Shown here piece by piece: positions 12,865 to 15,800 of a DNA stretch of 64,000 nucleotides. A model generated the notes under the pieces. The model was not told the DNA's origin and searched no databases. It saw only the letters and a list, made by a program, of their open reading frames with translations. Position numbers and translations under genes: made by a program. The stretch is taken from NCBI RefSeq assembly GCF_020382885.2, contig NC_058499.1, positions 9,471,872 through 9,535,871 on the forward strand. Direction: 5' to 3'. The DNA is from Scatophagus argus (lineage: Eukaryota; Chordata; Actinopteri; Scatophagidae). Within the stretch, counting starts at the first letter, position 1; each line of letters begins with the position of its first letter.

Positions 12865-15800
12865 TCAGTCAGATCCAAAGTCTTCCACATCGTTCACACT
12901 GTCCTCCGCAACCCTAATGAGAGGAGGTGATTTCTTCTTGCGCCTGTGATTGCAAAAAAATAAACAAATAAATAAAATCACCACACTGAGTCAATGAGAC
13001 CCTGCACATGAAACACAGAAATTTGGCGGCAGAAGGTCAGCGGTCACCTCATCTCATTCCTCAGTGCATTCAGTTGGCTGTGAAGCTGCTCGTTGGCCTC
13101 GATCTGCTCATCCAGTTCTCTCTGCAGCTTCTTTTTAGCGTGTTCCAGACGCTCGATCTCCTCCTCCGCCTCATCCATCTGCCTCTTCGCAATCTTCAGC
13201 CTCTGAGTCAGCTGCGGAGTTTACACAAGTTACATATTGAATCACGAGTCAAATCAGCTGCCCCCCCCCCCCCACAACTTGATATCTGTTTTGTTTCTTT
13301 GTGGCTAAAGAACGGGTCTGACCTGATCTCTCTCGCTCTGCAGGTTGATGTGTTCCTCATCCGCTTGCATCTTCATCTCCTTCACCTTGCGCTCCAGCTT
13401 GCGGTTCGCTTGTTGCAGGTTATTGTTGTCTCTGAGGCCAAAAGCAGCAAGAGATCACATCACTGCTGCAGCTTCCTGTAACTCAACACCTTGCTAGTGT
13501 GTTTGGGACCAGCGATACTTCCACTCTTACAACCACAGGGAAAGTGATACGAGTGGGTTCACTGCACGACAGCTGCCATCAAGCATCTCGTGAAAGCATC
13601 TCATGGAAGTGTTCTTCTAAGTGTCATCCTCCTCTGGTAAATCATCTCTGGATACATTAATGAGCTAAAAAAAAGGCCATTATTTAACGTACAGGTGCTC
13701 ACCTCTCTTCTTCTTGCAACCTCTCCTCGAGTTCCTGGATGCGGCTGTTAAGTTTGGAGACGAGTGAATCCTGATTGGTCCTCTGTGATCCTTCCAGATG
13801 AGTCACTCTGCTCTTCAGGTCTTTATTCTGACAGAGAGGAAATCAAGCAGCCATTACTGTCATGAATCTGGCTAACTTGAAAGGTACCCTGGAGGAGTTT
13901 TTGACATTTAGAAGGGCTGTGGAGCAACGTTTTTGTGGGTGTAAGCACACAAGGACGCACATGTTAGCACACTTGCAACAAGAAATGCAGCATAGTGAAA
14001 AGGAAGGGAGGAAGAAAAGTGCTAGCAAGTAACTGTGGGATGTAAACAGTGCAGGCTGGTTCAAGGATACACACAACTTTTGTTTGTTTAAAGGAAAACT
14101 CAACAGGGGAGATTTAAGGAGGTTTATACTAACATTTAGATGTCAGCAGAGAGTAATGATCCTGGATTATCTGTTGCTGTTTAAAAGATTTAACTCTGAT
14201 TTGTTTCACAGACACCATGTGGTGTTATTCTCCGGGGTCAGTACCTGTCTGTGGGGTCAGTAATTTTCTCAGGGGTCAGTACCTGTCTCAGGGGTCAGTA
14301 ATTTTCTCAGGAGTCAGTACCTGTCTCTGGGGTCAGTACCTGTCTCCGTTGTCAGTACCTGTCTCAGGGGTCAGTACCTGTCTCAGGAGTCAGTACCTGT
14401 CTCAGGGGTCAGTACCTGTCTCCGTTGTCAGTACCTGTCTCAGGGGTCAGTACCTGTCTCAGGAGTCAGTACCTGTCTCTGGGGTCAGTACCTGTCTCAG
14501 GGGTCAGTACCTGTCTCAGGGGTCAGTACCTGTCTCTGGGGTCAGTACCTGTCTCCGTTGTCAGTACCTGTCTCAGGGGTCAGTACCTGTCTCAGGGGTC
14601 AGTACCTGTCTCAGGGGTCAGTACCTGTCTCAGGAGTCAGTACCTGTCTCTGGGGTCAGTACCTGTCTCTGGGGTCAGTACCTGTCTCTCCAGGCTCATC
14701 TTGTCACACTCCAGGTCCTGCCTGATCGCTCTCTCCTGCATCAGCTCATTCCTCATCTGATCCATCTGTCACGTACAACAAACAGAAAGGGAAACTCAGT
14801 TTAAGCATTCAGCAGTGTTGGAAAGTAACAAAGTACATTTCTTCATGTACTGTGCTTTAGTTTCTAGTTACTCTATAGATTTATTTAGACAATTTAACAC
14901 ATTATTAAACAATAAGTTAGCAGCTCAAATTCTTCTTGTCTTGTGACAGCTTAACCTCTTGTCATGTTTCAAAAGTCGACACGTTCTTTTCCTTCTAAAC
15001 TTCTCAGACAAGCTCATTTAAGTACCTGTTTGAGGCTCAAAGAGGTCAACACATCAAGTGTGAACATCTTGTGATCCTTTGGCCCTGCCCCACACGTTGG
15101 GAACCACTGGGCTAAACTGGCAGATTGTAGTCCTGATTGAATTCTTTGGGCCAATTTCTAACCATACAGCTAAATAAGGACTTGAGCTTCATATGTACTG
15201 CCTTCCATACTGAATGAAAACACAGCTGGACCTTATTAAAAGGGCACCAACTGTTGACAAGCACTTTCAGGTTAAATGAAAAGTTTTCAGCTTAATGTCT
15301 AAACTCAGAGGAAATGCTGTCTGGTCCAAGCAGCCACATTGGATCTGAAGGCTCTCTCCTCTCTAATAACATCCAGAGGCCCAGTGAAGGGAGTGTGAAT
15401 AGCTGCTCACAATAGTTAGCTGTTTTATGTCTTTGCAGTGCACCCAAAACAGTGTTTTGTGTCAAATTAGTCTGCACCACTTTGCTCCCATGAATGGTGG
15501 CCTACTTTACAGCTACACTGAGGATGTGGGGCTCTTGTGATGTGACGCCATCAGGGATGAAGAAACATCCATGAAGTCAGCAGGGTTCAGTCATATATCA
15601 CGGTGAAGAAAACATTGAGAAACAAAAATGAAACTTTCACAGCCAGCCTGGAATCACCAATCAGCAGCTTTCAGTGAGGAGAAATGTGAGCACTCAGCCC
15701 TAAATCTGTTTATGATAAAAACAGATGTAGGGTTGGGTGCTCCAACTTAGGATGGGTCATAATTCACTCTTTTCACAGTTGGAGAGATTTATAAATGTTA

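Follow-up and report, generated by a model that had tools for sequence, protein, structure and literature searches.

A minisatellite built from copies of a functional 5′ splice site in a presumed cgnl1 gene of Scatophagus argus

We analysed a 64-kb stretch of Scatophagus argus DNA (hereafter the window) containing a coiled-coil gene that we take to be cgnl1. Domain searches elsewhere in the window found RFX DNA-binding, bHLH, aquaporin-type channel and Ig I-set domains, from genes that are presumably RFX7, TCF12, AQP9 and neogenin. The minus strand carries an 84-nt coding exon (14682–14765; 28 codons, open in frame 0). It joins in frame to the next coding exon, of 125 nt (13703–13827), which follows the acceptor TCTCTGTCAG/AATAAAG. 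The peptide of the two exons matched Myosin_tail_1 in Pfam (E 3.7e-11) and the tails of non-muscle and smooth-muscle myosins in the PDB (best E 9e-07), and the assembled coiled-coil peptide of 453 aa matched Myosin_tail_1 at 8.7e-16; the domain search gave no match for the head region of the assembled gene. Myosin-tail matches are expected for a coiled coil of the cingulin type.

The 84-nt exon ends in CTGGAGAGACAG and the following intron (14681–13828, 854 nt) starts with GTACTGACCCC on the minus strand. The last 8 bases of the exon are the start of a tandem repeat that extends 453 bases into the intron. The first-pass annotation had described this repeat as a minisatellite made of copies of a 5′ splice site and had placed it at 14238–14692. 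The Tandem Repeats Finder (TRF) bears out the array and shifts its bounds to 14229–14688, with a period of 19 bp, 24.2 copies, 89% matches, 0% indels and a score of 731, the highest among the 27 TRF rows for the window. Individual inspection of the 24 units on the minus strand showed CAG/GTACTG in 22, in agreement with the earlier count of about 24 units with the GT kept in 22. Copy 1, with its GT at 14680–14681, is the splice site of the exon itself, and 21 downstream copies with the identical 9-mer (units 2–20, 22 and 24) lie at 14243–14663. The donor is gone from units 21 (14297–14305) and 23 (14259–14267), which contain AAATTACTG and read AAA/TTACTG. On the opposite strand, all three frames are open over the array (214, 153 and 152 aa, within 14160–14804); we do not take them as an antisense gene, the open frames being a by-product of a 19-bp unit that holds no antisense stops.

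Within the window, CAGGTACTGA occurs exactly 22 times, every time inside the array, and 27 times with up to one mismatch, compared with a mean of 4.94 in 100 shuffles (sd 2.08, maximum 11). A two-unit pattern with up to two mismatches gave at least 16 matches in the source genome (570.7 Mb, 48 contigs; very common words were skipped, so that counts are lower bounds), all of them within the cgnl1 array, and an exact 33-base array pattern had no match in the viral contigs searched. As no second genomic place and no viral contig was matched, we ruled out a widespread satellite or mobile element. Assembling repeats of this kind is difficult and this one comes from a single assembly, which could mean an inflated copy number or a misassembled locus. 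However, instead of exact copies the array shows an interspersion of several unit variants, with repeats that extend over multiple units, and the genome was assembled to chromosome scale (48 contigs), so an artefact is very improbable.

Three paralogous loci in the genome, on C1, C17 and C9, have the two exons separated at the same place. Their junctions read CTGGAGAGACAG/GTACACAC, CTGGAGAGACAG/GTACTGCT and ATGGAGAGACAT/GTACAAAC, two of the three sharing CTGGAGAGACAG/GTAC with cgnl1. TRF with a minimum score of 30 found no array at any of the three junctions; a 6-bp repeat was detected elsewhere in one locus. Because array-free paralogues share the junction, copy 1 is, by this comparison of sequences, the ancestral donor, and the array arose later by expansion. 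The founding unit corresponds to bases −8 to +11 of the junction (AGAGACAGGTACTGACCCC, 8 exon and 11 intron bases), which is matched at 19/19 positions by copies 1, 2 and 9 and at 15/19 or more by all 24 copies. When 19-mers are counted from the GT, units 1–19 consist of four variants and units 20–24 differ from all four; the degenerate end is therefore the intron side. Columns 2–8 of the unit are invariant in 24/24 units, and the variation falls mostly in columns 9–13. Neutrality alone does not require such an invariant donor core, although few independent mutations are involved; any case for selection on the donor cores would draw on these few independent changes, and homogenisation could yield the same pattern.

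Since one 9-mer is common to all 22 donors, any score based on 9 bases is equal for all of them. We scored this donor against other exon ends of cgnl1; nine ends yielded six donors, as two lacked a GT and one GT was not accepted as a donor. With a weight matrix, the array donor scored 4.3, the second lowest of the six (3.9 to 10.8), and its pairing with U1 was −7.1 kcal/mol, the third best of the six (−6.3 to −10.1), compared with −14.0 for the consensus. A role for RNA structure was ruled out, as the RNA of the exon plus array (528 nt) is less folded than its shuffles (z +2.64; 100/100 shuffles fold at least as well). AG/GT is present in every donor unit, and the pyrimidine fraction upstream of the array AGs is 0.29–0.53 (mean 0.44, n = 23), compared with 0.76 and 0.65 for two real acceptors; this content is too low for the array copies to be considered recursive splice sites. 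The motif TACTGAC, which is near the branch-point consensus and overlaps the donor, is found in 24/24 units.

This same motif, together with CAG/GTACTG in the donor units, means that a CAG joined to a downstream GTACTGA would restore the same donor. In principle, splicing between a copy and any copy further downstream could shorten the array stepwise and leave no trace in the mRNA, and if this were true a very long donor array could be tolerated. We think it highly improbable that the array erases itself in this manner.

We then translated the product of each donor. Copy 1 keeps LERQ/NKDL across the join, as proposed in the first-pass annotation, and is the only donor with an open frame. The earlier tracing of the other outcomes was likewise reproduced: donor 2 gives GAA TAA after the join (product ending in TE and a stop), donor 3 gives a TGA at the fourth codon of the next exon (product ending in IKT and a stop), and translation of the retained intron reaches a TGA in the third unit. 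The remaining 19 downstream donors stop at this same TGA. Every slip was predicted to produce a premature stop, and this holds for 21/21 downstream donors and for intron retention; each of these stops precedes the next junction by 112 nt or more. Skipping of the 125-nt exon 13827–13703 also leads to a premature stop, directly after LERQRQQ.

The first-pass annotation suggested that variation in array length or donor choice could tune functional cgnl1 mRNA. In that view these stops could be seen as the mark of a regulatory device, in which identical donors compete and array length or trans factors set the share of mRNA that goes to nonsense-mediated decay, and hence the level of cgnl1. The 22 identical donors, the stop after every slip and the stop after skipping of the next exon would all suit such a device. 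However, in simulated arrays of period 19, stops followed all 23 slips in 1.00 of GTRAGT units (2000 units) and in 0.485 of random 19-bp units (2000 units); at periods 18 and 21 the all-stop fraction was 0.10 to 0.20, with 0.10 and 0.12, respectively, for GTRAGT units. A stop is brought into frame within three units because GTRAGT holds TAA or TGA, GTACTGA holds TGA, and the period is indivisible by 3. The stop after every slip is thus automatic for a donor unit with such a period and provides no evidence for a designed switch. In addition, the paralogues manage without the array. We consider control of cgnl1 by donor choice improbable, and the human data described below bear on it from both sides.

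Human ABCA7 carries a similar repeat in intron 18, a VNTR with a 25-bp unit in which exon 18 has its canonical donor at the first GT; the reference has 23.7 units and alleles range from about 12 to 427 units (PMC5954066). Use of the second-copy donor lengthens the product by one unit, and the resulting frame shift leads to a premature stop; this one-unit retention amounts to ~2% independently of VNTR size (PMC5954066), which argues against array length acting through donor choice. Overall ABCA7 expression drops as the VNTR lengthens, as control of expression by the array would predict, but the authors do not credit the drop to the retention transcripts (PMC5954066). Skipping of ABCA7 exon 19, in contrast to retention, rises strongly with VNTR size (PMC5954066).

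The two arrays are alike in that the GT of the first unit is the donor of a coding exon, in their copy numbers (23.7 and 24.2 units), in a period indivisible by 3, and in the frame shift and premature stop that follow a slip to the second copy. The genes and the unit sequences are unrelated. Length variation and RNA effects were measured in ABCA7, whereas the cgnl1 array is known from the sequence of one assembly, and the exon skipped in ABCA7 is in frame (44 codons), whereas that of cgnl1 has 125 nt and is out of frame.

In human CBS, alternative donors within a repeat of this kind are used. This 31-bp VNTR lies at the boundary of exon 13 and intron 13 (c.1444_1467+7, 16–21 units), and lower enzyme activity has been reported with a higher number of units (PMC2630376, PMC5188458). 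As in cgnl1, the CBS unit straddles the exon end and the first intron bases; by its notation it comprises 24 exon and 7 intron bases, compared with 8 and 11 in cgnl1. A search of one open library returned no donor-spanning array in fish, which is weak evidence of absence. In the cgnl1 array, the first unit includes a coding exon's canonical 5′ splice site, later units hold 21 further copies of CAG/GTACTG, and a slip to any of these leads to a premature stop; in these respects the array matches the ABCA7-like donor-spanning VNTRs. It is a fish example of an arrangement already published for human genes such as ABCA7, and enlarges a short list of minisatellites in which a working splice donor is copied.

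The ABCA7 exon-skipping data raise another explanation, in which the array is an intronic element of variable length that promotes skipping of exon 13827–13703 or intron retention, through U1 decoys, protein-binding sites or lengthening of the intron. The strong rise of exon 19 skipping with VNTR size (PMC5954066) and the premature stop that skipping would cause in cgnl1 are consistent with this explanation, which we nevertheless hold to be unlikely, if less so than control by donor choice. A passive array offers a third account, which we judge possible but somewhat doubtful: copy 1 would do all the splicing and the array would have no effect on the mRNA. The absence of arrays from the paralogues, the unstructured array RNA and the poor array acceptors agree with a passive array, but the identical donor 9-mer at 21 other sites does not, nor does the low-level use of copy 2 that has been measured in ABCA7 (PMC5954066).

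Taken together, the array is probably a neutral or mildly costly donor minisatellite, with copy 1 as the main splice site and low-level slippage that is cleared by decay. As the units themselves show, tandem duplication acted on the 19 bases that span a real 5′ splice site from −8 to +11, and each intact unit is thereby a full copy of the donor. The exon sequence upstream of copy 1 is unchanged, and this copy, which occupies the original end of the exon, is therefore most likely still the main splice site. Judging from the identical 9-mer, the 21 other copies could bind U1 snRNA equally well, and we would expect low-level use of them. The mRNAs from slipped donors carry a premature stop and, following the usual rule, would be subject to nonsense-mediated decay. 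The ABCA7 measurements make length effects plausible in cgnl1, more likely by a route other than the 19-nt donor ladder; by analogy, array length may act by weakening the definition of the downstream exon or by delaying removal of the intron. Three points stand against a neutral or mildly costly minisatellite dominated by copy 1: the first donor is not strong by the weight matrix (4.3), though its U1 pairing is mid-range; copies with equal 9-mers at a single locus might, in principle, share splicing more evenly than those of ABCA7; and the donor core is invariant among the units, as described above.

The simulations show a simple rule, that a GTRAGT array with a period indivisible by 3 must stop after any slip, so that errors would be cleared by RNA decay whatever the history of the array. 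Donor arrays are also natural experiments on how the splicing machinery selects one of many identical donors at regular spacing.

A second donor-spanning array was found in the same genome, on C19 (L030, 1494–1624; matched at 497192–497302). Its 34-bp unit, present in 3.9 copies, consists of 10 bases from the end of a coding exon and 24 from the start of the intron, and provides four donors with CAG/GTGAGT. The intron is 144 nt long, of which 42 nt would be left if donor 4 were used, and 3/3 downstream donors lead to a premature stop. Like the cgnl1 array, it has a unit that spans the exon end and the intron start, and downstream donors that lead to a stop; it differs in having a longer unit (34 bp), fewer copies (3.9), a strong donor and a short intron. 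A paralogous junction at 16.5 Mb on C19 has no donor array. Searches of Pfam, PDB and NCBIfam gave no name for the gene, which presumably resembles an MRCK (CDC42BP) kinase. The presence of a second array suggests that donor-copying arrays may be a recurrent and overlooked class. The periods of the donor-spanning arrays (19, 34, 25 and 31) include no multiple of 3, and are too few for this to have meaning.

Across the genome, there was no excess of tandem donors: triples of CAGGTRAGT gave 6 matches versus 11 for the reversed control, and triples of AGGTRAGT gave 10 versus 25, with patterns of consensus donors that miss the cgnl1 array, whose donor is GTACTG. The CAGGTRAGT triples fall in five places, among which the one on C19 has a coding exon running into the first of the four donors. 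The AGGTRAGT triples fall in 7 distinct places; a coding frame runs into the first donor at C19, and inspection by eye found no clear coding frame at the other six, which may include non-coding exons. At C8:19550–19621, close to the end of a contig where telomere-like repeats occur, a 34-bp repeat carries the consensus donor CAGGTAAGTAT, after which come a T-rich tract and TATAGG; no coding frame was seen, and the arrangement resembles a string of mini-introns.
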